Positions 4,173 through 61,289 of a DNA stretch of 64,000 nucleotides are shown here, piece after piece. The DNA is from Geosiphon pyriformis. Its lineage: Eukaryota > Glomeromycota > Glomeromycetes > Archaeosporales > Geosiphonaceae. Location: NCBI GenBank assembly GCA_016748015.1, contig JAAOMT010000561.1:132026-196025 (forward strand). Reading direction: 5' to 3'. The notes under the pieces are model-generated. The model did not search any database. It saw only the letters and a list, made by a program, of their open reading frames with translations, and was not told the DNA's origin. Position 1 is the stretch's first letter. Every line of letters starts with the position of its first letter. The position numbers were made by a program, and so were the translations under genes.

Positions 4173-7100
4173 ATGACACAAAAGGCTTGTAATGAACTCT
4201 TCTTCAATAGTACACCTTCTTCCCCTATATTGGGAGCGGGAAGGTCAAAGTGTGAGTTAAAAAGCAACGTTCTTTTTCTGACTTCTGTTTAGACTTTTCT
4301 CGATAAAATTTTCCCGAGTTTACTTCCTAATTGTGCTCTTTTATGCTTTTGGCCTCTCCTTCCTTAGACGTTATTGGAGTCTGCGCCATGGATAACAAGG
4401 CTCGTTCAAAACCAATGAGGAACATTTTGAACCGCTTATTTTCTTTTGGAGAATTCGAAACGATAATTTTCGGTGACAAAGTTCTTCTTGATGAAGGTAA
4501 AGCCTCAATTTAAGCCTTCCTTTTTTCTCGCTTTTCCTTAATCTTTAATATTCTTTTTGATTACTCTGGAATCTTTACTTATCAAACTTTTCCTTCGTTT
4601 TCCCCTCCTTGAATAGACGTAGAAAACTGGCCCGGTTGTGATTTCTTCATTTCCTTTTTCTCGTCAGGTTTCCCATTAGATAAAGCAATTAAATATGTTA
4701 AATTGAGAAAGCCATTTTGCGTCAATGATTTGCCCATGCAGAAAATTTTATGGGACCGACGTCTAGTACTGTCCATACTAGATTCAATCAACGTACCCAC
4801 TCCACAACGGCTAATCGCCAGTCGAGATGGTGGTCCATCAATAGACCTGGAGGTTTTAGAAAAATTACGAAAGAATACTGGTTTAATAAAACTTAAACTA
4901 TGCGGCCAAGCTCAGCTGAAATTAATAGATTATGATACCATCAATGTTGATGGCCAATTGTTAAAAAAACCATTTGTGGAAAAACCAATAAGTGGTGAAG
5001 ATCACAATATTCACATTTATTTTTCGAAAGAAATGGGAGGTGGTGGCCGTAGATTATTTCGAAAGGTTTATACTTTCATTCATATTTTAGCTTGGCTTTT
5101 GAAATCCTTTATAGATACTAATTCCATTTGATTCAACACTTAGGTAGCGAACAAATCAAGTGAATATGATCCAGACCTCTTCGAACCTCGAACTGATGGA
5201 TCCTATGTTTATGAACAGTTTATGTATACTGACAATGCTGAAGACGTCAAGATCTACACCATTGGACCTTCCTTTGCTCATGCTGAAACACGTAAATCAC
5301 CTGTGGTTGACGGAATGGTACGGCGAAACACGGATGGGAAAGAGGTTCGATATGTGACAAAGCTTACCCCCGAAGAAAAGAAGATGGCCCGAGATATAAG
5401 CCTAGCTTTTGGTCAAACCGTTTGTGGCTTTGATCTGTTACGTGTCAATGGCAAATCTTATGTGATTGACGTCAACGGTTGGTCTTTTGTCAAGGGTAAT
5501 GACGATTATTATAGTAATTGTGCTCGGATTCTTCGCACAATATTTTTGAACGCTGTTCGAAAACGCAAAGTTAGCATCGATTCTATTCCAAAAGAGCTTC
5601 GATACGAGAATTCGTGGCGTCTCAAATCTTTCATCTCAGTATTCCGTCATGCTGATCGGACACCAAAACAAAAAATGAAATTCTCCTTTCGTAGTCAACC
5701 TTTCATTAATTTGCTCAATGATGGCACAGAAGAAGTCATTCTACGAACCCAAAATGAACTGTTTCAGGTTTTGGATGCAACACAAAAAGCGATTGAACAA
5801 TCGTTCGAAGATCGTGTCAAACTAGATCAACTTAAACTGATATTAGATATGAAACGTGAGCTACCTGGTACAAAGGTTCAAATTAAACCATCTTACAAAA
5901 AGGAAAGCGGTGAATTTGAAAAACTTCAACTAATAGTCAAATGGGGTGGCGAGGTTGGTTATTATAATGGTTCGATTTTTTTTTGGAATCATATTTAAGA
6001 GTCTCATGAACAATTCTTTTATATCACTTAGCCAACACATTCAGCTCGTCATCAATCACGTGATTTAGGAGAAAACCTCCGGAAAGATTTGTTAATAATG
6101 AACCGAGGTGTCTTTGACGATGTCAAAATATATACTAGTTCAGAACGACGCGTCAGCACAACAGGTATTGTAAATATAATAAAGGCGACATTTCATAGCT
6201 GTTTTCGAAAAGTCTGCCCCGCTTAGAATGATATAATATGTATAAAATTAAATATTTTTTTAATAAAAGTCATCTAATCTTCGTCCCGGAGTATTCTATA
6301 AGTGACCATACATGTTTCATTTTATTACTTTATCGGGTCTACTTTTCAGAAAACAGCCATGAAATACCCAGCCTTCTCTTGTCTATCCCATAAAATTGAT
6401 CAATCAACTTTTAATATGATGGATAAAACTTTGTCCTACAGCGGAAATTTTTGCAAGAAACTTTCTTGATATGGAAGACATTTCGGAAGAAATAATTCAA
6501 ATTCGAAAAGATATGCTCGATGATAGTAACGCGGCTAAAGAACAAATAGATACCGTGAAAAGTCACCTGTCCATACTTTTGAAACCTGGGGAATCATCTC
6601 AGATAGAATTTGGATGGCCAAAGGATATGCCAGAACCACGGATAGTGGTTCAGGAAATCATCGAATCGTTGAAGAATTTTCGTGACATCATGCGTCAGAA
6701 CTTTGCTTCGATGGATGTTGAAAAGATTCAACCTCGTTGGTGCTGCTCCGAAAATCCAATCCTCTTTAAGGAACGGTGGGAAAAACTCTTCAAAGATATT
6801 TGTGATGTTGATCGCCATAAATTTGATCCTAGCAAATTATCCGAGCTTTATGATTCCTTAAAGTATGACGCGTTACACAACCGACAGTTCCTCGAAAAAA
6901 TATTCACCGATCAATCAGATACCAAGAACGCTCGTAAAATAAAAAACCTATATCAACGAGGAAAAATTTTGTTCGATTTTGTGGCTCCGCAAGAATATGG
7001 TATTGAAGATAGTGAAAAACTGCAGATTGGGTTGTTGACATCACTGCCTTTGTTTAAGCAGATAATAGAGGATTTGGAAGTGGCTAAAGTAAGCCCCGGA

Positions 7101-7863
7101 CCATGTACTAGACTCTATTTTACCAAAGGTGAAGCATCACCTGTGAAAAATCGGCCAATATGTTTCATGGTCAATTGATTTCATTTCTGATACCATTAAC
7201 AAATATTTCCCAACTAACCTTCCGATCAGAGTCCCATGTACATACCCTATTAAATGTTGTGTTCTTGTCTGGTCTTCCAACCAGAATTCACAAGAATGAT
7301 ATACCGGAACTTGATTGTAAATATTTCCAACCAATAAAGCTTCATTATTTCTGAAATCACGTCTCCCTTAAAGTGGGTCATATTTGCTAATTTTGTCAAT
7401 ATAATGATTATTATTGTATAATCACACGTGAAAAGATCTTACTCAGATTACGTTTGAACTCTACGAGCGTAATCACAACGTATCTGGCAGCGACAAGGAA
7501 TATTCTTTACGCGTGGCGTTCAGTCCTGGAGCGCATGATCCAAATATTCTGGATATGCGATTGGATGCGCGACATTGCCTCAATGTGGCGCCAAGAAAGT
7601 AAGTGTTGCTTGTCTGATATGATGGTATTGATTATCTGTCCAATCACCACTTAATATATTCACCTTTCTTGTCTCTTGAAAATTCGAGAAATCTGACGGA
7701 CCACTTGCCACTCGATGAAGCTTTATCATATTATAAGCGGAAACTGGACAATCCACGGATGGCTGCGGTTGAAGAACAGTTGTTGTTGATGCACCATAAT
7801 AATCATCATAATCCAACCCCACAGATGCAATACGATACTTTGCGTCTTAGCAAATCATTTTGA
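4173..7863 (+). CDS. VIP1: VIP1/Asp1-type inositol hexakisphosphate and diphosphoinositol-pentakisphosphate kinase
   Basis: A bifunctional inositol pyrophosphate enzyme: an N-terminal ATP-grasp kinase adds a beta-phosphate to InsP6/InsP7 and a C-terminal histidine acid phosphatase-like domain removes it. Nine exons: 4173-4251, 4368-4496, 4617-5065, 5144-5953, 6032-6164, 6442-7128, 7230-7316, 7436-7598, 7689-7863. All introns are GT-AG, phases close, and the product is 903 aa, close to the usual size of about 900. Start: the ATG at 4173 opens a small exon that splices in phase to the family hallmark [15 protein letters not shown]. Other signatures are DEDVENWP across exons 2/3, [14 protein letters not shown], the ATP-grasp catalytic stretch [18 protein letters not shown], and the phosphatase motif [10 protein letters not shown] at about residue 387. 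The phosphatase Arg-His is intact. It is convergent with the cyclin gene downstream. The family call is very firm; the first exon is inferred. Confidence 0.93.
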
Positions 7864-8833: not shown

Positions 8834-10032
8834 TTAGGCGGACTTTGATGGGGTCTTGGAGGCTTGGTCGACTTCCATATAGAGCTTCAATTCATCTAGG
8901 GTTAACGGCAGATTAGGGGGTAATTCAAGATAGTAGAATCGCATGATATGGCCAGCTATATTTTCGATATGTATTAACAATGTCAAGAAAAATATCGAAT
9001 TAAGAAAGTGGTAAATATTTAAGATCATTGAAAAAATGTCGTTCAAAGGATATCTTCCAATCGAGCCTCAAATAATTCCCACCAAGCTGGTTCTGTAGGT
9101 AATTTGACCTGACACATCCGTGCAGCAAGCCAAATCACTGCACAGGCAATGGTCGGCGGTTGATAGCATACATAGATGTTGGTTCGTAGGCTTATCCGGA
9201 ATAAAATTACTCGTAAATAATCAATATTCATAAATATTATGACACAATACTATACATACGAGTCATTTAAATACCCCCAAGCTTTCTGCGGAATTTCTTC
9301 ATGCTCGGTGAGTTCAAGAACCTTCAAATAATTGACCATTAACCCATATGGCAACTGCACGTGAACATTAAAGCCAAGTCGTTTGAGTATTTGCATTTCT
9401 GCGATTACTATAGCATCTTTCATCTCAAAAAAGGTCTGTATATAAAATTTTCAAAATGAAATGATCATAAAAATTAAAAATTAAAAAGTATAATAAGATT
9501 TATTCACTTGACCAAAATATTCCAGCGGTTCATGAGGCGTATTTTGATACCGTATTATTAAATAATGATAGACGTTGATAAGATCTCTAATTTTAGATGG
9601 AGATTCTTGCACCTTTGAGGCGAGGAAAAGGGCACCCATGCCTATATCCTGAGAAATTGTATATTGGCATGAGGGAGATTTCATTAGTTAAAAATTATGG
9701 ATAGTCTACCTCTTACCAAAGCCGAAAATTTTTTCAGCGAAGCCACATAAAAGAAACGTTGGAACAAGACTTGAGCAGTGGCCATGGCTACTTGTGGCCT
9801 AAATTCCATGAAATTCAAAACAATGAGGCCAAAAGTAAAAGGTTGCATAAGCAAGAAGAAACAGTAAAAGAAACAAATACAGCTTCATCAAAATTCCTGC
9901 CGACTGAATAAACTCGCAACCGAGCTGACGTAACGCGTCTTCAAGTTCTTCCGAAATACCATCTTTTCGAGAAGGTGTTGTCTCGAGCTGATCAAAGGTT
10001 AATATAGCGTTTTGGAGGGAAAGTTTTGACAT
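8834..10032 (-). CDS. Cyclin L-like transcriptional cyclin
   Basis: A cyclin of the transcription/splicing-associated type, expected to activate a CDK in the nucleus. Six exons on the minus strand: 10032-9881, 9798-9717, 9648-9508, 9435-9260, 9190-9054, 8970-8834. Total 825 nt, 274 aa, all phases consistent. The start at 10032 gives MSKLSLQNAILTFDQLETTP followed by SRKDGI, the N-terminal hallmark of cyclin L. Cyclin box 1 includes LGCEFIQSAGILMKLPQVAM and GALFLASKVQESPSKIRD. Cyclin box 2 includes SLRTNIYVCYQPPTIAC and WWELFEARLED then IENIAGHIMRFYY. The first four introns are GT-AG, 68-82 nt. The fifth (8971-9053) begins AT and ends AC (separate entry). Unlike animal cyclin L, there is no long Arg/Ser-rich tail. 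A cyclin K/T-like or Pch1/Ctk2-like role remains possible, but the N-terminus favours cyclin L. Confidence 0.88.
8971..9053 (-). other. U12-type AT-AC intron in the cyclin gene
   Basis: Seen in sequence, minus strand: exon 5 ends TTGGAAG, the intron starts ATATCCTTT and ends TTGTTAATAC, and exon 6 starts ATATCGAAAAT. The 5' site matches the eight-base U12 AT-AC consensus (ATATCCTT) fully. TTCTTGAC places a branch adenosine at position 8983, 12 nt from the 3' end, close to the usual U12 distance and near the TTCCTTRAC consensus. Splicing here joins LED to IENIAGHIMRFYY in frame, with 45 codons to the stop. Without it the frame stops two codons after LED. No GT donor exists in the right place. 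ATATC occurs at both borders, so the cut could formally slide, but only the AT-AC choice fits a known splice class. Confidence 0.82.
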
Positions 10033-27719: not shown

Positions 27720-28542
27720 ATTATTTAAATAAAAACCAATTTAAAACTATTAAAAAATGTAATTAATATATAATAATATAAAAACATAATAACACAAAAT
27801 AATACAGAATAATATAAAATAATACAGAATAATATAAAATAACTTAAAATAATACAAGATTATACAATAATATGAAATAGCACAAAATAATTAATAATAA
27901 TATAAAATAACTAGTTATAACATAAAAAAATAAAAAAATAGTTAAAATAATAAATAATAACTAGTAATAACAAACAATTAAAAGCAATCTTATAAAACTA
28001 AAAAATATATATAAAAGTGAATAGTTTTAACAGATAGAAAAGAACAGTAAAAAAAAACAAGAATTATTTCTTTTTTAATATCTTATTTTTAACTTAATTA
28101 ACTTTATTTTATATATATATAGATTAATTTAATAAAATCTTATTATTTAATTTATATATAAATATTTTTAATATTTTAATTGTCAAAATTGAAATAATTG
28201 TCTCTTTTATTTTTATTTTAGACCAAATATTATTAACATAAAAATGCTTTAAAATCATAATAATTTAGATTAATTATTCTTAATTACAGTAATTAATAAT
28301 ACTAAATTATTATTATTTATTTATTTTTTTTATTTTTATTTTATTTTTATTTTTTTTATTTGAGTATCAATTTTATCTTATTAGTTTACTAAAAAAACAA
28401 AAAAACAATATTAAACTCTAGTAATTATGTTTATTAATTCAGAAAAAAATATAATAAGAATAATATAATTAAAAAAACCATATTTCTGTACTTTATAACC
28501 AAAAAACTTAATAAATAGAATATTAAACAACAAAAATTTTCA
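27720..28542. repeat. Direct repeat A, copy 2, left part
   Basis: Matches 15840-16735 in the same orientation, up to the LINE insertion. It ends with AATATTAAACAACAAAAATTTT, the counterpart of AATATTAAACAGAAAAATTTTT in copy 1 (16720-16741). Confidence 0.68.
28532..28542 (+). repeat. Target-site duplication, left (AAAAATTTTCA)
   Basis: The 11-mer AAAAATTTTCA immediately before the LINE recurs at 35346-35356 immediately after its poly-A tail. Repeat A copy 1 at 16731 has the sequence only once, as an empty site. Because the tail is poly-A, the duplication could be slightly shorter. Confidence 0.72.
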
Positions 28543-28681
28543 AATATTGTGGACTTCTTTCTCTCTTACCTCCAAAAAACCTCAAAAAGCATATTTCAAA
28601 AGAAGTTTTTTTTGTTATTTTATACTGTTTTTCATTACTTTACAAGAAACAAATCCTTTTGTTGTTGACCTGGCTGCTCCC

Positions 28682-30525
28682 ATGAGTGGTACTGGTGCTA
28701 AAAAAAGGTCGATCAGAGTTCCAACATCTGGTTCAGTTAGTAGTGGTTCAAGTCATAAGATCAAGAAACCTTCTAGTGGTGCTAAGCTATCAAATAATGG
28801 TGCGACTCTCAAAGGTAGTGGATCTGGTCAAGTGGTTGGGCAGTTTAATAGCATAGATACTGATAAGAAGGCTTCCGAAGGTAAAGGAGTATCTGATTCC
28901 AAGATAAATACACTTCAAGCCAAGCACTTCAATAATAGTGTGATTATTGGCTCCCTTTTTGGCTCTATTAATTATGACATGGAGGAGAAAAAAGAGATTT
29001 CTCTTCCCTTCCATAAGTCTTTTTCTTTGGATAAGGCATGGATTGATCCTAAAGTCATTAAAACTCAGGTGGAAGTAGCTGTAAAAAAATCTTTCACTTT
29101 GGACATCAATCTTTCGGCTATGAAAAGAAAATCAGCAACAGTCAAAATTCATGTTATAAGAAAATTATTTTTAGTAATCAATGGTTTTGGGAGAGCCATT
29201 ACCCCCTCAAAATTTGAAGAGATCATCAGATCTACCTTTACCTCTGAAGCAAGCATGGAAAAGGCCACCTCTTTGGCCAGAGAAAATAACATTATAGTAA
29301 ACAGCAATCTTAAGAGACAAGGAATTTGCTCAGATTAGGCCATAGCAATCAAAAAAATTTCCATAGATACGCCAAAAGAAATGATCATCACTGCAGTATC
29401 CAAGTTTGGACAAATTAAGTTGATCAAAATCCAACTTATTGGTTTATGGCAGAAGGCTGTGGTAGAATTTGCTGAATTGAAACAGGCTGTGTCTTTGGCT
29501 GCTAAGTAGTCTTTCCTAATTGGTAAAGACTCAGTTTGTGTGGCTATGGTGGTGGGTGATCATAATACTTGGGCTTCTAGAGATCAATTCAAGACACTTT
29601 TGTTTACTTTGCCTGTGGGAACAACTGTTTATAATCTCGGTAATCTATTGGATGGGGCTAGTAGAAAAAGTTGCATAATCAACCATTCCTTGGAGACTGG
29701 AAATAGGTTTCGTTGTGCTGTGGTTGGCTTTGAGTTTAATGAAATGCTGGAGTCTGCTTTTCACACGGAACCAATCCTTGGTGGTATGAAGCTTTCTTGG
29801 GTTAGATTGGATCTGGTTCAGTGTGAACAGTATAGAAAATTTGGTCATTCTACTTTGGAGTGTGATGTTGAGGTCACTTCTACTTTTAGATCTCCCAAGT
29901 CTTTTAAAAGGGTTGTTTCTGATGGGAATCGCCTCCAGTTGGCCGATTGTATGCAAAAAAAGATGTGCCTATTGCTCGACTGGTTGCTTTTGGTAGCAAA
30001 TTGTGGGTCCAAGTAGTCTCCCTTATACTTTCGTCTAATAATTCTCACTTTGGTTTTGATCCTGGTTTTGGCTCTCTTTCTTCTGGTGCCTCAGATGTGA
30101 TTGGTCTCTCTCCTCATATGATTCTTGCTAGTACATCCTTGGAGGCTTGTCTTGCTTCTTTGGAGCATTCTGTGGAGTTTCTTGTGGATAAGATATCTGG
30201 TATTGTGAGTAAACTTGATAATTTGGTCTTGGTGCCTTCCACTCTTACCTTTTCTTCTCAAAATTTGGTGGTTTCAGTCATGGCAAATGTGGGGTTTGAT
30301 TCGGACATGGCTTTGGATGATCCTAAGCCAGTACTTTTTCTCTCCCCTTTGGTTTTATTTAGTACTTCAGATTTAGGTTCGAGTAGTTCAAGAATTTTGA
30401 CCTCAAAAGTGGACTGTTTGAAGTCTAAGTTGATGGCTCTCGAGGCTTCAGTTTGTTCAGTTTTGGAGAAGTTAGATCAAATGTGTACTGGCTTGGGTTT
30501 TGCAGTTTCTTCTGTATCTCAATGA
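28682..30525 (+). pseudogene. LINE ORF1, broken
   Basis: Gag-like RNA-binding protein of the LINE. It starts MSGTGAKKRSIRVPTSGSVS at 28682. Stops occur at 29336-29338 and 29507-29509 (AK-stop-SFLIGKDS, where relatives have Trp). A frameshift near 29943 separates the 29540-30016 frame from the 29947-30525 frame. The zinc knuckle near 29822-29863 reads C-E-Q-Y-R-K-F-G-H-S-T-L-E-C: the second Cys is Tyr (TGT to TAT), so the CCHC site is lost. The N-terminal 45 codons before 28682 are an open leader, not necessarily translated. The ORF ends with a TGA that overlaps the ORF2 start. Confidence 0.82.
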
Positions 30526-33500
30526 GTAGTTTCATGTGGAAAATTGCGACATGCAATATCAGAAGAATGAACAATCCTGCTAAGCAAGCCGACATTATTC
30601 ATTGGCACAAAGATATAAACAATATGATTTCTATAGTTACTGAGACAAAGTTAAGGTGTAAGGTTTGCCCTTAGATTGTTAATAAGTTTTCTGGTGTGCG
30701 TGTGTTCATCTCTGGCTTGAATTTGGGTTATCTCGGTTCTGGTGTAGCTATCATTATGGATGTTGCTTTAGCCAAACATATGTATAGGATTTCTGAAGTT
30801 CCTGGTTGTCTTCTTGCTTTCAAGCTGTTTTTCAAGAACAAACTTTCTGTTTCTGTTTTAGGTCTGTATGCTGGTACATCTATGTCAATGTGTTTCTCAC
30901 AAGCTGATGAAATAAATGCTTTGATTGCTGATGCTGTGAATGAGTCTTCCTTTGTAATTTTGGGCAGTAACTTCAATGAGGATGGTTTTCGTAAGAGTGC
31001 CAGCTTCAAGAAGTGTGGTACATTAGGCCTGGTTAACTCCCTCGTCAATAGTGTATTTCTAAAAGTTCTAACATGGAGTAATTCTTGGAGTGTGATAAAA
31101 ACAATTGACTATCTGTTTGTATCTTCCAATTTGGTCAATGCTATAGTGGATCGCAGTGTCCTGGAGGTTAGTGGATTCTTTGATACTGACCACCAGTCTG
31201 TTTTGATGTCAGTCGGTTTGGGTGGATTGTTAGACATGCATCTGTGCTTGCTTCGCAAGCAGGCCAATAGGGATCACTGGAAGTATAATTTCAAAAATGC
31301 TGATGCCACTTTATAGTCAAAGTTCAAGGAAGCTATAGTGGCAAATTCTGCCTTGTTCACTGGTGGTTTCTTAGAAGCCAAAGAGTGTTTAGACTTAAAT
31401 GCTATGTGGGATGCTATTCATAGAACAATGTGTTTTTTGGCTAATGAGGTGTTTAAAAAAATATGGTTCAAAGAATATGATAGAGTTTTCACCAAATGTT
31501 CATCTAGATTTCATAGGTTGGAGCTTCTGGTTTTTAAATTGGTTAAAGCTTCTCGTTTGGTTGATTATAGTAAGTTTGTTTTACTGCTTGATATCTGGGA
31601 TTCTTTTGATTCCATTAATGCATTTGTGGTGAGGTCTCTTTTTCTCTCAGGGTTTCCTTTTAACAGCATTCGTTCAATTTTGTCCAAAGTCAGGAAATCC
31701 TATCATGCATCAAAATTGTTGGAATCAAAATGCACTGAGAATTTTCAGATCAGATCAGCTATTAATAAAAAGATAGAAAGTTTCGAATCAAACAAAGATT
31801 ATACTATTAGAAGTGTTCTGGAAAGACCTTTTTGCAAGGTGGTGTTAAATCATCTGGTTGTTGGGGATGAGATGATTTTGGAATCTGATCCTGTCAAATC
31901 TAAGATGGATGAGATCATAGAGGGTTGAACATGGAGACATAGTGTAGTTCTGGATGTTAATAATGAATGGTCTCATCAATATCAACCATTAGAATATGTT
32001 TTTGATGATGCTTTTGCTGACACTATGGGCTGTGTAAACTTCGATGTTTTGTTTAGTGTGGTTTCAGACCTGCTTGATGGTAAAACCACTGAACTCTTGG
32101 GCATCTCTAATAAACTGTGGAAAAATTGTGACAAATCTGTTCTTGATATGCTTTTAGTGCTTATTAATTTCTGTTTCTCAAGTGAATTAGTGCCTAGTGC
32201 TTGAAAAGAGGCATGAGTCTCAATGATTCCTAAACCACATAAATGGGAGGGAGTCCTTATGAATACTCATCCTATTGTCTTGATTGAGACGGCCCATAAA
32301 ATTTTCTCTAAAATTCTCTCCAATAGGATCTCATTAGTGTGCAGCAAGTTTGATGTTCTCTGTGGGGACAATTTTTTCATTCTCAAGGGTACTATGACAC
32401 AGTCTCTTATCTTTGCTATAGATTTGGTAGTCAAAGATGCTCTAAAAAAGAACCGAAAGCTCTGGCTAGTTTTGTAAGACATGAGAAAGGCATACGATTC
32501 TGTTGGTTGGGAGCACCTTGAAAAGAGTCTGGTTAGAATCAAAATGTGTGGCAGCTTCATCCGCTTCTTTAAGTGTATTCACGTGGGTTGTACCAATCAG
32601 ATCATGACTGATTTTGGTTTAACTGATGGCTACCATGTCTATAATAGTTTGGATTAGGATGAAGTTTTCTTCCCTCTTTTGTGGCATATTTTTTATAATC
32701 CTCTTTTATGCAAAATCAAAAGACAGGAGAGTGTGTATGGATACAGATTAGTGTCCCATTATATATTGAAAAATGGTTGTGCTGAATCTCAGGCTGGCCT
32801 TTCTTTGTTTCTTGCCACCAGTGCCTTTGTTAATGATACAATCTGAGTTGGGAGCAATCAAACTGTTACTCAACATATTCTAGATATGGCTAGTGAGTTT
32901 TACTGAATCAATGACATCTCTATTAACAATGATAAAACTATGGCAATTCCAATCAACTGCCACATTGATAGACCTTTTCTTTTCATCAGTGGGGTGCTGA
33001 TTACCATTGCCAGAAAAAGGAAGTCCCATCATTATCTGGGTATCTTTTTTTTGACTGAAGATCTCTCAAAGTCCAGTCTGGTAAAAGCTCATTTGGACAT
33101 TCGTTTCTTTTCCAATATGGTGCTCAAAAAGGCTGTCTCTGATAAACAATTTTTGTATTTGGTGTCTGCTGTTCTGTATCTTATTGTCAGCTTTAGAACA
33201 CAGTTTAGTTTTATACTGGTTAGTGTGTGTCACAAGTGAGATGCTCTAATCAGAAAGAGCTTGAAGTTGAAATCAGGTTTACTGTCTGACTTCCCTAGTA
33301 ATACAATACACCACCCGTTTTTTTATGGTTTGAAATTCTTCATCCAAATTCAGTTAGAGGGCAAGGTGACGTCCCTTATTTGTTTTGCAAACTCTGGTGG
33401 TGTTTTGGGTCATTTATTTTCTCACAGGTTCTATGACTTGTAAGTTTTATGTTGGCATCCTGTCCATCCTTTGTGTCTTCCTGTCTACATTTATGTTAGT

Positions 33501-38409: not shown

Positions 38410-41400
38410 ATGCCTCATACATCGACACGACAAGTATTGCCTACCGATGTTAAGCCAACTCATTATAATTTGACACTGTCTCCCGATTTGGAGACTTTTA
38501 CCTTTAAAGGGACTGAGGCCATTAAGTGAGTCGGTACATGTTGAAGTTCCTTTCTTATATAGTGCGAATTTCAGTGGAGCAATAGTACCATTGTTACCTA
38601 ACCCCATGACTGCGGTTATTGGGGAATGCTACGGGCTGGTCTGGACACATGCTAACCCCATGACTGCGGGTTATTGGGGAAAGGCTGCGGGCTGCATGTG
38701 TCCCTTTGGTACATCTTGTCAGCGCCCTACAGTTTTCTGGCCTGGGGTAGAATTTAGGAAGAAAGGCCAGGAAACAATGGTTGAATTCTTAATAAATCTT
38801 TAAAAATGTAATTCAATAGCCTCACTGTTAAACACGAAACCAGCCAAATTACACTTAATGCTTACCAAATTGAAATCCAAGCTGCAAGATTGGACGTTAG
38901 TTCAAATTTATCCGAAAGGTATTATAAAATCAAAAGAATCTTGGATGTTGTAATTATGTCGCTTCACGTTTTTCTTCGTTCCATACTCTAAATAGCTAAT
39001 TTTTATATAGCCTTAATTCAACAGATATATCTTATGATTACCAAAAACAGACTGTAACTTTTACTTTTCCAAGTAAACTTGCAGCCGGGACTAATGTCCT
39101 TCTCAATGTTGAATTTACTGGAATTTTGAATGACAAAATGGCCGGATTCTACCGTAGTTCTTATACTGATCACACTGGCCAAAAGAAGTGTGTTTTTTGC
39201 ATTCATTCGTGAAAAAGCTTTGGATGACTCGAAATTTCATTCATCAGAAAATGATCACTAAATTATTTCAATTTGATCGAATTAGGTATCTAGCCACAAC
39301 TCAGTTTGAAGCGACTGATGCCCGTCGAGCTTTTCCTTGCTGGGATGAGCCGGCCATCAAAGCTACTTTTGATATTACTTTGGTAGTCCCTTCTGATCTA
39401 GTTGCTTTGAGCAATATGAATGTAGTATCTGAATCTCCAATCCCCAACGGCAAGAAAGAAGTGAAATTCGCCACAACCCCGATTATGAGTACATACGTAC
39501 GAACAATATTTTGAATGCATCTCCGCCTTTTATGTATTCAAATGGTTATCTTATTACTTATAATGCAACAGCTTGTTGCATTTATTGCAGGGGATTTAGC
39601 ATACGTTGAGAAAACTACTACTGGGGTTAATAACGGTGGTCAATCTGTTCTCATTCGTGTCTATGCAACCAAGGGATTAGAGCAACAAGGGCAGTTCGCT
39701 TTGGGTGTTGCTACTGATACATTGGAATATTTTGCTCAAGGTACCAATTTCAACATTCTAACGGCTACTCTTTAATTTGAACAAATATTAAAAAGATATT
39801 ATCATTATAAAGTTTTCGGCATACCCTATCCCTTGCCAAAACTAGACATGATAGCTATTCCAGATTTCGAAGCAGGTAAGATCTTTCTTAAAATCATCCC
39901 CAGATTGATAAACTGGCTTGAAAATAGTTTCCGACAAAATTAGGTGCCATGGAAAATTGGGGTCTCGTTACATACCGTACTGCTGCAATTTTATTTGATC
40001 CCAAGGCTTCTGATGCAAAAAACAAGCAGCGCATTGCATATACTGTGGCTCATGAGTTGGCCCACCAATGGTTCGGAAATCTTGTCACTATGGAATGGTT
40101 CGTCATAATTTAAATATTGAAAATTACCTTCTCCCTGAATGTGAAGTATTGATTTGGCTCTTTCTCAGGTGGGACCACCTTTGGCTCAATGAAGGATTTG
40201 CAACCTGGGTTGGTTATCTTGCCATCGATAAACTTTTTCCATCATGGGATATTTGGACCCAGTAAGCTTAAATTATTTCCAGGATGTATATTCTGAACAA
40301 TATCTTCTAATTAATTCGAAATGTGATAAGATTCGTGACTGAAGGTTTTCAAAGAGGTCTTCACCTTGATGCTTTAAGATCATCTCATCCTATAGAAGTT
40401 CCTGTGAATGATCCAAGGTATATTCGAAGTTTTTTTTATCAATGTTAGCCAATTTATATTCATAAGCATTTATATTTTTTGAAACAGTGAAATCAATCAA
40501 ATTTTTGACGCAATCAGTTACTACAAAGGAGCCTCAGTAATTAGAATGTTGAGCTCCTATTTAGGAGAAGACGTATTTTTAGCCGGAATCAGAAGATATT
40601 TAAAAGCCCACGTATATGGTAATGCGAGTACTGATGATCTATGGAGAAGTTTGGAAGAGGAAAGTGGCGTTGATGTTGGGAAATTTATGACAGTATGGAC
40701 TAGAAAAATTGGGGTGAGTAAGTGCGATGTTTCTATTCAGTTCAAATGGTAATTAATAAGGTCATTTGATAAAATTTAGTATCCGGTATTGAATGTTACT
40801 GAGTCCGCTCCGAATAAATTGCACATTCGGCAATCTCGATATTTATCTGCCGGCGATGTCCAACCAGAAGAGGATGAAAACATTTGGTGGGTGCCTCTGG
40901 GAATTCAAAAGAGCATTTCCAGCCCTCTCAGTGATAAGGCAGAAGTTCTCGCAGAAAAAGAAGCCGAGTTTACATTGCCGGGAACAGGGCCAGATTTTTA
41001 TAAGCTTAATGCACGAGAAGTAGGCGTTTTCCGTGTAAATTACCCACCTGAGCGATTGGCTAAACTAGGAAAAGCTGTTAAGAACAATGAGATTACAAAC
41101 ACTAGCGATCGTGTTGGTGTGATTGCTGATGCTGCGGCGTTGGCTGTTAGTGGATATGGAAAGACCAGTGGTTTCCTGACCTTGGTGAAAGAATTTGAAA
41201 ACGAGGATAAATTCATGTAAGTTATGGAAAAAATGTTGAGCAAATATTAATATTTAATAAAATAAATTTTCTTATTCGTCAGTGTTTGGTCAGAAATCAA
41301 TTCTCGTATCACCGCTCTTACCTCGGTTTGGTTCGAACAACCTGAGAACGTTTACCAAGGGCTTTTGTCTTTTGAACGAAAACTAGTTTCAAAACTGGTT

Positions 41401-42651: not shown

Positions 42652-44596
42652 TTATTTGCACCACAATTTTTGATCCAAAATAGCTATGGCAGCCCCTAGG
42701 CACCATCCTGTTTCAATTCCTTTGATTTTTTTGGCGATCTTCAACTCCCGTTCCAATGGAATTTCATAGCCAATATGTAAAAGTTCATATATAAAAGTTA
42801 AATCCATGCAATAATGCGGATTCTTATTAAGCTCCTTTATCGCGTCAGGCAAATGAGCAAAGTTATTTAAATTGCTTGCGCATACTTTATCTGCAAGATC
42901 ACGTAGTTCCCTTAGCGAGAATTCCGAGGGCATTCCCAAAGGACTGGCACGATCATAAAAATATGAAAACGCGTAAATATCGTGAAAGGAGAAAGTTTGG
43001 TGCAGCGGTGGCTGATAAACGCCATTGAATGAACATGGGGACAAAGTGCATTCTTTTTCTTTGTTTAGTACTTGTTCAGTTATAGCACGGCATTGTGCAT
43101 GACCGGCGCCAGTACCGACTAATGTAGTGGTTCCAATAATATCAGAGGAAAAGGATGGATCTAAGGGCCAAACCTCAGTATAGTTCTTTGGGAGACATGG
43201 ATGTGGTACTTGATTACCTTCAATAGGTAATTCGATATTATCAGTACCAATGGCAATCTTACTATTGATTTTTTTGGTTTCCTTGTACCATATTTTCGTC
43301 ATGAAATTTTTTATTGCCTTTCGAGCTTCCATAAGTCCATAACCTAAATAGGAATGCTGATAGAGAACATACTTATGTTCTCCGTATTCTAGTTCATACC
43401 TGTGATCACCAGGCGCAACATCAAATCCATCTACAGTATCAGGTTCAAACACTATTTGTGTCGACCCTCCACCGAGATCGAAAATGGCGGCAGTAGGTTG
43501 CTTTTTTGTCGATCCTATTCTCTCCAAAAGATAATTAACTGTGATCCATGCATAAACACCTGAGATTTCCAAAAATAATATTTACAATTGGCTGTAGTGA
43601 ACTTTGATCAATAAAATTGTTTCAAATTCGTTACCTTCATCTCTTCCATCCATAATAGCGACGCCTTCTTTTTCAATGATGGGAAAGGGGTAATTAAGTT
43701 CCAAGTGTTCCCTTATTGCTCTCAATATATCTTGACTTTTATCCTGTCCTAATAGCCGCAAGCCAGCTGTTGCTTTCACTGCTATTGGGGTGCAATTTTG
43801 TAACTCAACAGGGACACGTTCAAGTGCCACATCCAAGAGTGTATTCAAACTTTTGGCAGCAGATTCAGGATCCGGGTATTTAGACAAGCCAGGTTCCGTA
43901 TGTGCAAATATTTCATCTTCTAATTCAGGTGATGATTTACAATAATTAAAGCGATATACATGAATACGTGAACCAGTGGATCCAGCGTCAATCATGAGTG
44001 CGTACTGAATCAATTGACGTCCAGGATGTGGAATTGTACAGTGAATTGATGTAAGAGAAGGAGCCAAATCTAAATTAGGACTCGTTACGAAATATTTTTC
44101 GTCAGATAAGAGTTTTCCATCATCATTATTAATTGATTCGCTAAATTCATAGGATGAGTCCCCTTGGGAAATATAATGAAACCATTTTCGTTAGATTAGT
44201 TGATTTGGGGACTATTCAAGGAAAATAAATTATATATTAGGAATACAGACAAATGCCTGGAATTGCATTCAGAGATGTCTCATCTCGAAAATCAGAATAT
44301 TCTGGTACCCTCACGCTTTCTTCCGCTATAAAAAACCAGGTCAAGCCAAGGCCGAATACACCCAAGATTAATGCGCGGATCCATATTCTTCGCCGAGTAC
44401 TGTTTTTGACCATTTTTTCAGTCTTCGTATCCAGGTAAACTATATTAACCCTACTTTCAGCTTTTTCAAGATTAGAACTCTTTCGGCGGGAGTGAACTTT
44501 ATAATCAACGGACTGTGGAACTCCCTCACCCACATTTTTATCTTGGGGGGAAATGGTATCAGGAATGATGGTAGATGGAGTTTGCGAAGAAAGCAT
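42652..44596 (-). CDS. GDA1: Golgi GDPase / nucleoside diphosphatase (GDA1/CD39 apyrase family)
   Basis: Hydrolyses GDP/UDP released in the Golgi lumen by glycosyltransferases, allowing nucleotide-sugar exchange. Three exons on the minus strand: 44596-44251, 44162-43635, 43559-42652; 593 aa, phases consistent. The start is the ATG at 44596. Type II layout: a basic cytoplasmic tail (about residues 1-70), one membrane helix (about 71-91, IWIRALILGVFGLGLTWFFI), then the lumenal catalytic domain. Apyrase conserved regions are all present: MIDAGSTGSRIHVYRF (Asp174), VKATAGLRLLG, the Glu/Asp-rich AIMDGRDEGVYAWITVNYLL formed across intron 2, and FDLGGGSTQIVFEP. Several lumenal Cys residues are present. 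The gene's 5' end lies within about 60 bp of a strongly AT-rich island. A Ynd1-like apyrase is less likely given the single N-terminal anchor. Confidence 0.92.
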
Positions 44597-53182: not shown

Positions 53183-56100
53183 ATGAACAAAACAATAAAA
53201 ATTTTCCCACATCGTACGGTGTGGCGAATATCACGAAATTTTACAACGAAAGGACTTTTAATTTTTCTCATAATTTTCCTATCATTAACAAATATAACAC
53301 CAACCTTAAAAGCTCAACAAACAAACTCAGGACTAGGTCCAAAGGTCACCTCAATACCATGGCGTGCGGCTCACTCTGCAGTCATGATACAAGACTCCAT
53401 GATAATTTTTGGTGGTGTTTCGAGTTCGAATATATTTGATGATCCCATGGGTTCGAATCAAGTTATGGTATGGAATGCGCAAACGTTTAGTTGGTATTTG
53501 CCACAAGTCAATGCACAAAATGAGGCCTCGGTATTACCACAAAAATTCGTACCAGCTGTACAGTTAACTTCGGGTGGTAAGGCTTTGATGTTGTTGTCGA
53601 ATGTTACTGGATCTAATCCCATTCAATCACAACTTGCGAGGTTGGATGTAAATTTTTGGAGTTGGGATTTACCAGCTTCAAGTCAAACTTGTAAGCTTTA
53701 TTATTTTGTCAATAATTCATTTCTTCAAAATTGATTTTATATCTCTAAAAAAAAAAAAAAAAAAATTTTTCATCCATTTCTATTAGTCAACCCGCCAGAT
53801 CTTGGCATTGGTGTCAGTTTTACCGCTATCAATGATAAAATTTATAGGTATGGCGGAATGTCTCTCAATTCGGGAAATTCAAAAGGTGGGGTGGTGAATT
53901 TATTGTGGACTGTGGTGAGTCTTTACGCAAGAAACTTTTTTAGACTGGATCCTTTGTTACTATTTTTCAGCTCTCTTTTTCTTGTTTCTTATTTCTAAAA
54001 TTCTATAACTTAATTTGAATTAGGATGCAAACACACTCATGTGGGGTCAGGGTCCCAATGGACCCACGCTTGCCTACCATTCTGCTTGTTACATGTCAGA
54101 TTTTATGATTATTGTAATGTTTGGTGGTCAAGACGCCGATTTCAGGATCCTCAATACACTCAATATTTATAATATACAAAGTAAATCTTGGAAGTTAGAT
54201 GTTCAAACTTCTGGAGGATCCCCTCCTAGGTAGGTGAAATTTTAATTTTTTACTTTCTCAAAACTTAAATTTTTATTTCTCTTCACTTGATTCATTTTGA
54301 TTCGACTTACTTTTTCATCACCTATCATTTTTAGTCCACGCCGAGCTCACACTGCTGTATGTACTTCTAATAAAATGATAATTTTCGGCGGGGGAACAAC
54401 TACCGCAGCTGATGATGCAGTATGGCTATTAACAGCATCATCAGACGAAGATTTTACCTGGTCTAACCCAAAATTGATCAATCAAAGCAAGGGTCCAGGA
54501 GGGAGATTTGGTATTTCTATTTCTATTTTTTCTATTTTTTTTTTCAGAATTTAAATTAATTTATCTTTTGAAAGCTTTTTTTTAATTTTAAATATTTCAT
54601 GCAAAGGTCATTCTGCTGTATTAAATGGTAGAAAAATGTTGGTTTATGGAGGAGCTGGAAGTCAAAATGGTGATACCAATGTTTATATGCTGGATACTGT
54701 TGCTTGGAATTGGACCGCTATCACATCAGATAGTAGAGATAATTCTTTAATTACTTCAAACATAAATGTAGCCATCGGCACAAGTAAAAATGGCGTCAAT
54801 AAGACAAACCGTATTGTAGCAATAGTCGCTGGCGTCATTGGAGGGCTCTTAATTCTCCTGATACTGATCACAATAATTATGATTGTTTATCGGCGATCTT
54901 ATAATCAAAGTAATGGAAGTTATTGTGGTCGACGAACTAGTAATATGAGACAATTTGGTAACCGTTTTAATATCGACGAGGAAGATCGAGCTCGTGATCT
55001 CAGTTATCATTCTACTGATGATCCTAGTGTTGATATAATGGCAAATCGTGTGAGCAGGGATCGAAGATCGACCGCAATGTCATCTGATTTATTGATTCCA
55101 ACTCCGGCCGCTGCTAGAGTTGCTAATAAAGATACAATATTAAATGCCGCGGCAATACCCGTTCTATTTAACAACAATGACAAATCTCAAATTTCATATT
55201 CAAGAAATGTCCTTAACCCTCTCGCTGGTCATCGATTATCAGCGATTTCTAGTAATAGTGATAATAACTTCGGTATTTCGTCACCAAAAAATCTCTACGA
55301 AGAAGAACAAGCAGATGGAAGTAGATGGACTTTTGTTTCTTCACCACAACAACAATCTGGTGTCACCCCTCCAATACGATACATGGCACCTAATCGGGAT
55401 GTACCTTCAGGCGCTGGTCGGCATGTGAATCATGGTTCACCGGCACTTTCACCTAATTCTTATGATTCTTCTTGGATACGTAAATATTATATTGAGGACG
55501 AAGATGATGACTCTGTAGGTTTGGGTGTTCACCTTGCTCGCCCGGTCACACCACCAGAAGTGATTGTAACTGCTCCTCGAGTTCCTCCAAATTCTGCACA
55601 TATGTCCCCTACTCTACCGCCAGAGTATACTAATGGTGCTGGGATTGTACATAGTGGGCACCAACGAATGAGCGCTCCAGTTTTAAATACTGACAATGAT
55701 AGAGTAATGGACAATTCTGTGTCAGGAATAGATGGTTCAACGATACCGAGTGGTGGTGTAATATATGATGGACTGAGTCCGTTAGATCGTATTGCAAGAT
55801 TATTTTCTGGTGATGATGTGGCTGGTTCTATATTAAGAAGTGAAAAAGAAAGTGTCAATTATCTCCCAAACCAGTCTAACTTTCAACGGCAACCTCAGCA
55901 GACTATGACATATTCAGGGTTATCTGAAGATCATTTACCTTTTCGAACAGGCGAGGATGAATTATACGGCAATGTACCAGAACATTCTTCAGCTGAAGAT
56001 GCCCATGACTTGAAACATAATCCAAATTCAAGAGAGACAATGTCGATGCAAAGCTCAGAGGAGGCTGTTAATACTGGCATTACAGACTCTAGAGATGAGC

Positions 56101-56228
56101 GTAATCAACGGATGTTCGCTAATGATATGGCAATTCAAAGTGATGAGGACGGTAACGGTGTCAAAAGTGGCAGGTCAAGTCACGACAGTGTGAACAAAAA
56201 TAATCGCACAAGTCAGGAACGGCGATAA
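53183..56228 (+). CDS. Kelch-repeat single-pass membrane protein with long cytoplasmic tail
   Basis: Five exons: 53183-53690, 53787-53914, 54024-54229, 54335-54510, 54607-56228; 879 aa, phases consistent. A hydrophobic N-terminal segment (about residues 22-43, KGLLIFLIIFLSLTNITPTL) looks like a signal peptide or anchor. Kelch beta-propeller repeats follow, with their Gly-Gly and Arg/His marks: WRAAHSAVMIQDSMIIFGGV, IYRYGGM, YHSACYM and MFGGQ, PRRAHTAVCTSNKMIIFGGG, GHSAVLNGRKMLVYGGAGS. A membrane helix (about 409-434, IVAIVAGVIGGLLILLILIT) precedes a basic YRRS stop-transfer and a 445-residue tail rich in Ser, Asn, Asp and Pro with low complexity. The layout is type I: propeller outside, tail in the cytosol. 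Role unknown; an adhesion, polarity or sensing role is possible, but no ligand or partner can be read from the sequence. Confidence 0.88.
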
Positions 56229-58497: not shown

Positions 58498-61289
58498 TTA
58501 ATATCCCCCTTGCATTTCGGCAATGACTGCCCTAGCTCGATCCTCACTCATTAAGCCGAAACGATACATTGTCATATTAAATGAGGCATCCCCTGCTGTC
58601 AAAGATCTCAAGGCTGATGCATAACCCAACATTGATGATAATGGGACATGCGCTTGGATAACTCTTTTGGCTTTGAAAATCCTATTTTTGCCTACATTTT
58701 CTTTATCATTATAGGTAGAATCCGGTGGGGCGTAAACCTCATTTTTCTGTTGATGTATGGGAACAGCAGACCCATATAAATGGACAGCTTTTTGGGCTGT
58801 TTCTAAAGAAATTATGTGTCCTCGACGAACTCCGCTAAGGTCGCTCAGCACAATACCCAAATATTCTTCTGAAACCTCAACAGTTACTTTCATCAACGGC
58901 TCCAGCAAGGAAGGTGATCCAACCTTAACGGCTTGCGAGAGTGCTTGTGAGGCACATGCGCTAATGGCTGTTTTCGTCGATTCAGCTCCGAAAAGTTTAA
59001 TCGAATTGACTCTAACATGAATTCCAGATAGCGGGAACCCAAGTATCGGACCACGGGAAAGAGCCGAAAGAATACCACTGTGTATAGCAGCCTTAATTTC
59101 CTTACTCTCTAACGTTGTATAGGCTTGATATTGAGGATTTGCAGAAGATTCAAGCGAGTTTACCGCCTCGTCCTCTAATTCAACCTCGATTTCAATTCTG
59201 TTACCACCATCAGACGCTATCCCATTATCATCCTCCGCAAGTGGTTGAATAAGTAGGGTGATCTGTGCTTTAGCTTGCTTACCCATAAGCTCTCGATCAT
59301 ATAAGTTTGTAAAATCAGAAACCTCTGCAGTAACCGTTTCCCGGTAAGATATTCGCATTTTGCCAATTTCTGCTTTCACCTTAAATTCATTCAACAAGCG
59401 ATCTTTTACAATTTCCAGATGCAACTCCCCCATTCCACTAATTAGATTTTGACCAGATTCTGGGTCAGTATTCAAATGAAGTGAAGGGTCTTCTCTTAAA
59501 ATATTTTTTAATGCATCCTCAAGCGGCTTCTCTTCCGAAGCTGAGATAGCTTCCACAGAGCAGAAAAATACAGGTGCAGGAATATCAATGGTCGGTAGGC
59601 GAAGAGTTTTACGAGTATCATTCATCTGTATTAATGTGTCTCCGGTGCGCGTTTCCTTTAAACCAATAACTACTCCAATATTTCCCGCTGTGATTGAAGA
59701 AATTTCTTCCGCTTCATTGGCGTACATTTGGAATATTTTGTTAACGCGTTCTTTTTGACGAATGTTCGTGTTGTATAGTGTCATGCGATTATCCAATTGA
59801 CCTGATGAAAAAAAACAATATATATATAAAAGTTAACAATGAAAGATATATTTTCTTGGTGCTTTACCTGAATAGGTCCGGATAAACACCATTGCCCCGC
59901 GTTTTTCATCATGAATAACTTTAAACGCAAGAGCACACAAATTATCTTTTTCCCGTAACGGAATTTCTACTAGCTTTCCATCTTCTAAACTAGCTAAAGG
60001 AGGTGGTCTCTCTAAAGGAGAAGGCAGATAATCTACAATAGCGTCCATCAATGGCTGCACACCAATATTTCGAAAAGCTGCACCACAAAACACAGGAATG
60101 GCTTTTCCACCAAGGGTCACTCTGCGCAATGCCTGGCGGATTTCATCGGCAGATACTTTGCCTTGTTCTTCAGAATTCAAATATGTATCCAAGATAATAT
60201 CGTCAATTTCGGATAAAGCTTCAATGAGGCTTGTTCGACCTTTCAGGGCTTCCGCGTATAATTGCGGCATAGCATGGTTTTCAGTTAATGGACTTCTTTG
60301 AATAACAGATCCATTTGGGTCTTTATTCCAGTCAAGTACATGCATATTAAGTAGGTCAACCACACCGATAAACGAACTGCTCCCTTTGTCATTAATTTCC
60401 ATTACAGGAATTTGGCAAACCAGCGGATTAACTTGCAATTTATATTGAATTTCTCTAACAGTCCTGCCAAACCCAGCACCTATACGGTCCATCTTATTTA
60501 CAAAGGCGATCCTCGGGATACCATATCGATCCGCCTGGGCCCAAACTTTCTGGGTTTGTGCTTCGACTCCCGAAACAGCATCTAAAATTGTAACAGAACC
60601 ATCGAGAACGCGTACACTTCTTTCAACCTCAATGGTGAAATCAACATGTCCAGGTGTATCGATTAGATTAATACGATGCTGCCTCCATCCAAAAGTAATT
60701 GCAGCTGAGGTGATGGTAATTCCACGTTCACGTTCTTGTTTCATGTAGTCCATTACCGTATCACCTTCATCCACATCTTTGTGGCATTTTCCGGTGTTAA
60801 ATCTCGGAAATAAGAATTGAATCAATAAATTGTACTGAAAAAAAACTTTTCGCATACAACTTGCCCCCTATTCTCCGTGTAAAGCCTGAATAATGCAGCA
60901 TGCGTTCGGTAGTCGTTGTCTTGCCTTTATTTCAAATATAATAGCTGAAAATCTGGTCCGAATGTGAAAATTTTTTTCGTATATAAGGGAAATAATGGAA
61001 ATACCCGCATCAATGTGTGCTATTATCCCAATATTTCTAGTATTTTTTATCGTATAGTCTAATAGGATAAATAATTATTCGAAACTCGTGGAGCTGTTAA
61101 TTTAAGAAAGAGGAAAGTGAAATAAAAACCTTCTGAGGCAGTTGAATAGAGAAGTTTTGAACATGAATTCTGGTAAGCAGTCCAGTTCTTGAAAGACCGA
61201 CAGAGGAATAAAAGGTTTCCCCAATACTCATTATTGTCAACGCTTTTTACCATAAATGCTTTTCGCATCATTTTCGAAAGTAAAAACAT
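58498..61289 (-). CDS. MEF2: Mitochondrial elongation factor G2 / ribosome-releasing factor 2
   Basis: A translational GTPase that works with ribosome recycling factor to split mitochondrial ribosomes after termination. Five exons on the minus strand: 61289-61130, 61058-61005, 60924-60861, 60802-59868, 59801-58498; 838 aa, phases consistent. The first exon (53 aa, Arg/Lys/Ser-rich with few acids) is a plausible mitochondrial targeting sequence. GTPase motifs: AHIDAGKTTTTE (G1, about residue 67), RGITITSA (G2), DTPGHVD (G3), NKMD (G4). The segment DVDEGDTVMDYMKQERERGI is typical of the EF-G2 branch rather than EF-G1. Domains II-V follow, with GMGELHLEIVKDRL and the C-terminal EMQGGY. The tiny exons 2 and 3 both interrupt the G1-G2 region. 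The start at 61289 is the most upstream in-frame ATG; Met7 is an alternative. Confidence 0.9.

Follow-up and report, generated by a model that had tools for sequence, protein, structure and literature searches.

The window examined here, meaning the whole 64-kb stretch of DNA that was analysed, corresponds to C224:132026-196025 of the Geosiphon assembly (124.7 Mb, 406 contigs). A gene of six exons runs from 10032 to 8834 on the minus strand, with a predicted spliced product of 274 aa. Its exons and the elements of its fifth intron are the following:

9881..10032, minus strand: exon 1, with the start codon at 10032
9717..9798, minus strand: exon 2, from the cyclin L gene model and homology
9508..9648, minus strand: exon 3, from the cyclin L gene model and homology
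9260..9435, minus strand: exon 4, from the cyclin L gene model and homology
9054..9190, minus strand: exon 5, which ends in GAAG and is followed by the U12 donor
8971..9053, minus strand: intron 5 of cyclin L, U12-type AT-AC, 83 nt, phase 1
9045..9053, minus strand: 5′ splice site ATATCCTTT, from motif score and snRNA pairing
8982..8989, minus strand: branch site TTCTTGAC, whose branch A lies 12 nt before the end of the intron
8834..8970, minus strand: exon 6, with the stop codon TAA at 8836-8834

Among solved structures, the product matches cyclin L1 over residues 4-258 (9vuh, E = 7.1e-68) and cyclin L2 (31zn, E = 1.8e-66), and more weakly cyclin K (9e-28) and cyclin T1 (7.9e-26). Pfam detects Cyclin_N (3e-11), with Cyclin_C_2 below its cut-off. 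The distance between the E values for L1/L2 (7e-68/2e-66) and for cyclin K (9e-28) bears out the cyclin L-like identity first proposed for this gene. With two cyclin folds and a cyclin L-specific similarity, the gene at 10032-8834 is, as judged by homology, cyclin L. No C-terminal RS domain was found in the predicted 274-aa product; such a tail defines the animal form of cyclin L and not the cyclin L family. When the genome was searched at the DNA level with a 351-nt query around intron 5, this copy was the only one found.

The gene's upstream neighbour (5144-7178, plus strand) combines RimK-type ATP-grasp and histidine phosphatase domains, and resembles a PPIP5K/VIP1 inositol pyrophosphate kinase. 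At 28499-31928 (plus strand), the open reading frames resemble a LINE-type retrotransposon, with an endonuclease-like stretch recognized by eye; a Pfam scan of the ORF at 30675-31316 in this region gave no match. Ordinary genes extend across 40780-60867: an ERAP1_C peptidase (40780-41217, plus strand), a GDA1/CD39 gene (42655-43581, minus strand), a kelch-like membrane protein (54555-56225, plus strand) and an elongation factor G type gene (58501-59832, minus strand). GC content, taken by 4-kb block of the window, ranges from 14 to 38%. Glomeromycota average 27% GC according to the part of PMC11134847 used here, and four of the six Glomeromycota assemblies given in the corresponding part of PMC9453076 measure 129-147 Mb, with Paraglomus at 44 and Gigaspora at 598. 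The GC content and the assembly size suggest that the genome is probably that of a glomeromycete, and its reading as fungal likewise comes from genome traits. Neither the AML2 primer site nor an SSU 3′ region, each searched for as an exact pattern, was found in the assembly; the rDNA may be missing from it or may differ from the patterns used.

Read along the minus strand from 9053 to 8971, intron 5 begins with ATATCCTTT and ends with AC. The donor and branch consensus used for scoring belong to the general background on U12-type introns, whose branch site resembles TTCCTTRAC and lies approximately 10-20 nt before the 3′ end. Intron 5 matches the donor consensus at 8/8 of positions +2 to +9 (9/9 over the full donor) and the branch consensus at 8/9. 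The gene's four other introns (82, 68, 72 and 69 nt, all GT-AG) match 5, 3, 1 and 4 of the eight donor positions. The predicted splicing is in phase 1, within codon 230, and the alignment of the product to cyclin L1 is gapless at the junction; left unspliced, the reading frame adds Ile and Leu and then stops (D-I-L-stop), giving a 232-aa product. The original prediction had described an AT-AC intron at 8971..9053 with a complete U12 donor match and a branch adenosine 12 nt from the 3′ end, here located in TTCTTGAC, the splicing of which restores the conserved cyclin sequence and the codon phase while read-through stops within two codons. Each of these points stands, and the observation of a U12-type AT-AC intron in cyclin L is confirmed; that it is actually spliced is what we infer from the sequence.

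ATATC follows both splice junctions, forming a 5-nt direct repeat at 8970-9058 of the window, and the cut may therefore slide by up to five bases with the mRNA unchanged. Only the unslid version, however, has accepted intron ends. The repeat could be the trace of an insertion or could be due to chance, the latter because the donor itself starts with ATATC.

The strict composite signal (RTATCCTTT, TTCTTRAC, and AC or AG 9-13 nt after the branch A) occurs once in the 64-kb window and was absent from all 300 simulated windows; for the 9-nt donor alone, a mean of 2.06 is expected per simulated window. To look for alternatives, every possible intron of 40-199 nt with GT-AG, GC-AG or AT-AC ends was enumerated across 9190-8780. 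Within this set, no GT-AG or GC-AG pair keeps both conserved flanks (AWWEL and DELKLYM), as opposed to nine AT-AC pairs, two of which have a U12 donor, and the whole homologous stretch is kept by 9053-8971 only. Three GT-AG pairs stay in frame to the tail, but with conserved residues lost or replaced. The enumeration rules out a GT-AG alternative for the major spliceosome over 9190-8780. A 72-nt version of the intron using TTCTTAAT was also considered and is absent among the nine pairs keeping both flanks.

Rfam models of the four minor snRNAs each found one place in the assembly:

C312:327240-327389: U11 candidate, 80.9 bits (cut-off 39)
C150:172514-172682: U12 candidate, 55.1 bits, just above the cut-off of 53
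C191:8149-8280: U4atac candidate, 43.7 bits, below the cut-off of 53
C365:129720-129859: U6atac candidate, 70.9 bits (cut-off 33)

The genome search for minor snRNAs, proposed earlier as a check, was thus rewarded with U11, U12 and U6atac above their cut-offs and U4atac below. None of the four models matched any of 14 control genomes, a weak control. The candidates pair as expected of their names: U4atac and U6atac may form a stem of 10 contiguous pairs (one G-U), the cyclin L donor can pair with the U11 5′ end over eight contiguous positions (G-U counted) and with U6atac over six, and U12 can pair with the cyclin L branch site over seven positions with one purine bulged, or six without the bulge. 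All four genes carry a TATA-like element in their 5′ flanks, between -37 and -26, and a PSE-like CCCAYAAT or ACCATAAT at -67 to -63; the PSE-like motif was chosen after viewing the flanks and has nine occurrences in the 64-kb window, both strands counted. These flanks suggest one common snRNA promoter in Geosiphon, and the four candidates are presumably expressed.

Two proteins specific to the minor spliceosome were also detected. The U11-48K zinc finger profile scored 27.3 bits (E = 7.2e-4), above its cut-off, and also matched one of the 14 control genomes, a Sulfolobus; the exon adjoining the zinc finger matches human U11/U12-48K (8r7n_F, E = 4.5e-8). The PDCD7/59K profile scored 35.6 bits (cut-off 27), and the ORF at that locus matches 8r7n_D (E = 5.5e-5). 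Both 8r7n_F and 8r7n_D are chains of solved human minor-spliceosome structures. Of the U11/U12 protein set anticipated earlier, the two members sought, U11-48K and PDCD7/59K, are both recovered.

Further U12-type introns were sought genome-wide with two patterns. The first, RTATCCTTT-N(30-60)-TTCTTRAC-N(6-20)-AS, gave 40 rows versus 3 in the reversed control; 32 of these rows (26 places) were set aside as one repeat, leaving five places. The second, using the TCCTTRAC form, gave 14 rows at 10 places versus 5 reversed-control rows. Eleven of the 15 non-repeat places from both patterns splice into open, coherent frames: 10 of 14 in a first frame test, and an eleventh, on C362, after a distant AC was chosen. 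No coherent frame was found at the places on C108, C221, C241 and C250. Since the first frame test used a loose criterion and was restricted to AT-AC and GT-AG ends, homology across the junction matters, and it is clear in five of the eleven: cyclin L, Rad2/ERCC5 (XPG_N, 8.5e-31), Tfb4/GTF2H3 (Pfam, 9.1e-25), ATG9 (1.6e-28) and a zf-C3HC gene (3.3e-15). The human ERCC5 gene reportedly has a minor intron as well. A cation channel gene has Ion_trans in its upstream exon (6e-52), and its junction is weakly supported (calcium channel, 3.2e-5; best match an EF-hand protein). The ARID, NRDE2 and eIF2B-type genes were named from neighbouring exons only. The NRDE2 match (residues 90-141) comes essentially from the upstream exon; it identifies the gene but says nothing about the junction. 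Two other loci are presumably VAC14 and DET1, though neither gave a profile or structure match. Ten of the eleven coherent sites are AT-AC, in a small sample picked by a strict donor, and Tfb4/GTF2H3 is the sole GT-AG.

The eIF2B-type gene (C362:1164200-1168300, minus strand), which has IF-2B in its downstream exon, holds a 104-nt AT-AC candidate whose donor, ATATCCTTT, is at offset 1986. Its branch site is not the TTCTTGAC of the pattern, because the AC that restores the frame lies far from it.

Four snRNA candidates, two specific proteins and further U12-type introns support the expectation that this lineage keeps the minor machinery; since snRNA candidates, U11-48K, PDCD7/59K and U12-type introns are present, the opposite case, a genome with no minor-spliceosome component, which would have counted against the original prediction, is not what we find.

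A few AT-AC introns are removed by the major (U2-type) spliceosome, and intron 5 might be one of them: the terminal dinucleotides alone leave the class undecided, and the gene's remaining four introns have GT-AG ends. Against this, the intron has the full 9-nt U12 donor and a U12-like branch site whose A lies 12 nt before the 3′ end, in a genome where minor machinery is present, and we regard removal by the major spliceosome as very improbable. It is just as hard to credit that 9053-8971 is no intron at all, but a decayed or misassembled stretch, or part of a pseudogene. That the splicing of this segment is predicted leaves such a reading a little room; however, each of the five other exons that flank a junction has an open frame, the 274-aa product can be aligned with cyclin L over residues 4-258, the gene is single copy and the insert has every U12 element.

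The repeat set aside above is a Ty3/gypsy-like retrotransposon, a coding stretch of which imitates a U12 AT-AC intron at 26 places. One copy carries an integrase ORF (Integrase_H2C2, 2.3e-17; rve, 1.6e-9), and the look-alike stretch lies downstream of it. Rarity of the motif alone is therefore no proof of an intron, and as a practical warning, U12 surveys based on motifs only would miscount this element. Its stretch has the same first 12 nt as the cyclin L intron and TTCTTGAC at the same offset of 64 nt; these likenesses, together with the ATATC after both junctions, which resembles a short insertion repeat, could speak for an origin of intron 5 from the element. Over the 52 nt between the motifs, nonetheless, the intron and 13 repeat copies share 13-19 matches (mean 15.9), versus 15.5 for shuffles compared with the first repeat copy. 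The local score of 16 between intron and repeat equals the best of 300 shuffles, and the flanks do no better than shuffled sequence. The stretch in the element is an open coding frame in 18 of the 19 copies examined, and no copies intermediate between the retrotransposon and the cyclin L intron were seen among the repeat copies. We rejected a retrotransposon origin, to which we give next to no credence, on the grounds of the shuffle-level inter-motif sequence and the coding frame of the element, and treat the apparent likeness as a coincidence.

We are left with a genuine U12-type AT-AC intron in a single-copy cyclin L gene of a fungus that keeps the minor spliceosome, at a probability of about 0.95. 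In such a reaction, U11 and then U6atac would pair with ATATCCTTT, U12 would pair around TTCTTGAC, and the U4atac/U6atac duplex would unwind. Excision of the intron, from AT to AC, would then complete codon 230 (Asp) in phase 1, and cyclin L would end at residue 232 if splicing failed.

Spliceosome activation in humans involves phosphorylation of SF3B1 by CDK11-cyclin L-SAP30BP, a complex in which SAP30BP surrounds the C-terminal cyclin fold, according to the part of PMC13324802 drawn on here. The part of the gene that encodes this fold is split by intron 5, and retention of the intron would therefore remove the end of the fold. It is tempting to hypothesize that the supply of cyclin L is gated by a scarce minor spliceosome, in a fungus where the set of minor introns is perhaps dominated by AT-AC; we hold this to be unlikely, and a regulatory role of intron 5 is speculation. 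If this is true, a retained intron 5 would cut short the second cyclin fold and in this way tie the activity of both spliceosomes to minor splicing. Since cyclin L is a spliceosome-activation factor, an intron in its gene makes it possible to test whether spliceosome activation depends on minor splicing. Apart from any such role, this work adds a well-supported gene with a minor intron, and a list of minor-spliceosome parts (four snRNA candidates and two specific proteins), from a fungus that does not belong to the groups in which the system was lost.

U12-type introns in fungi are a known kind, of which the cyclin L intron is a solid new example. For Rhizophagus irregularis, the part of PMC10639083 available to us gives 205 minor introns together with the full set of four minor snRNAs, and for Basidiobolus meristosporus it gives 249 minor introns; that of PMC2846911 reports a few minor introns in Rhizopus oryzae and approximately 20 in Phycomyces blakesleeanus. 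The surprise implied by the original prediction is smaller than it seemed because minor introns in several fungi (Rhizophagus, Basidiobolus, Rhizopus and Phycomyces) are already in print. No link between cyclin L and a minor intron was found in the literature among the matches listed, supplements aside.

As in Rhizophagus and Basidiobolus, the fungal minor introns found here have the donor and branch motifs of animals and plants and a phase bias away from 0, insofar as PMC10639083 describes these. The four minor snRNAs recall Rhizophagus irregularis in particular, for which the same source adds many specific proteins. It also gives GT-AG as the majority of minor introns in most species, unlike the AT-AC majority of our coherent sites (10/11, a small sample). 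AT-AC and GT-AG introns of U12 type together with minor snRNAs are likewise described in Rhizopus and Phycomyces in the part of PMC2846911 used here, and these represent a different lineage if the present genome is that of a glomeromycete. With respect to the protein, the fungal cyclin L belongs to the same cyclin family as human cyclin L1 and L2 (9vuh, 31zn) over residues 4-258, and differs from both in ending at 274 aa, without the RS tail.
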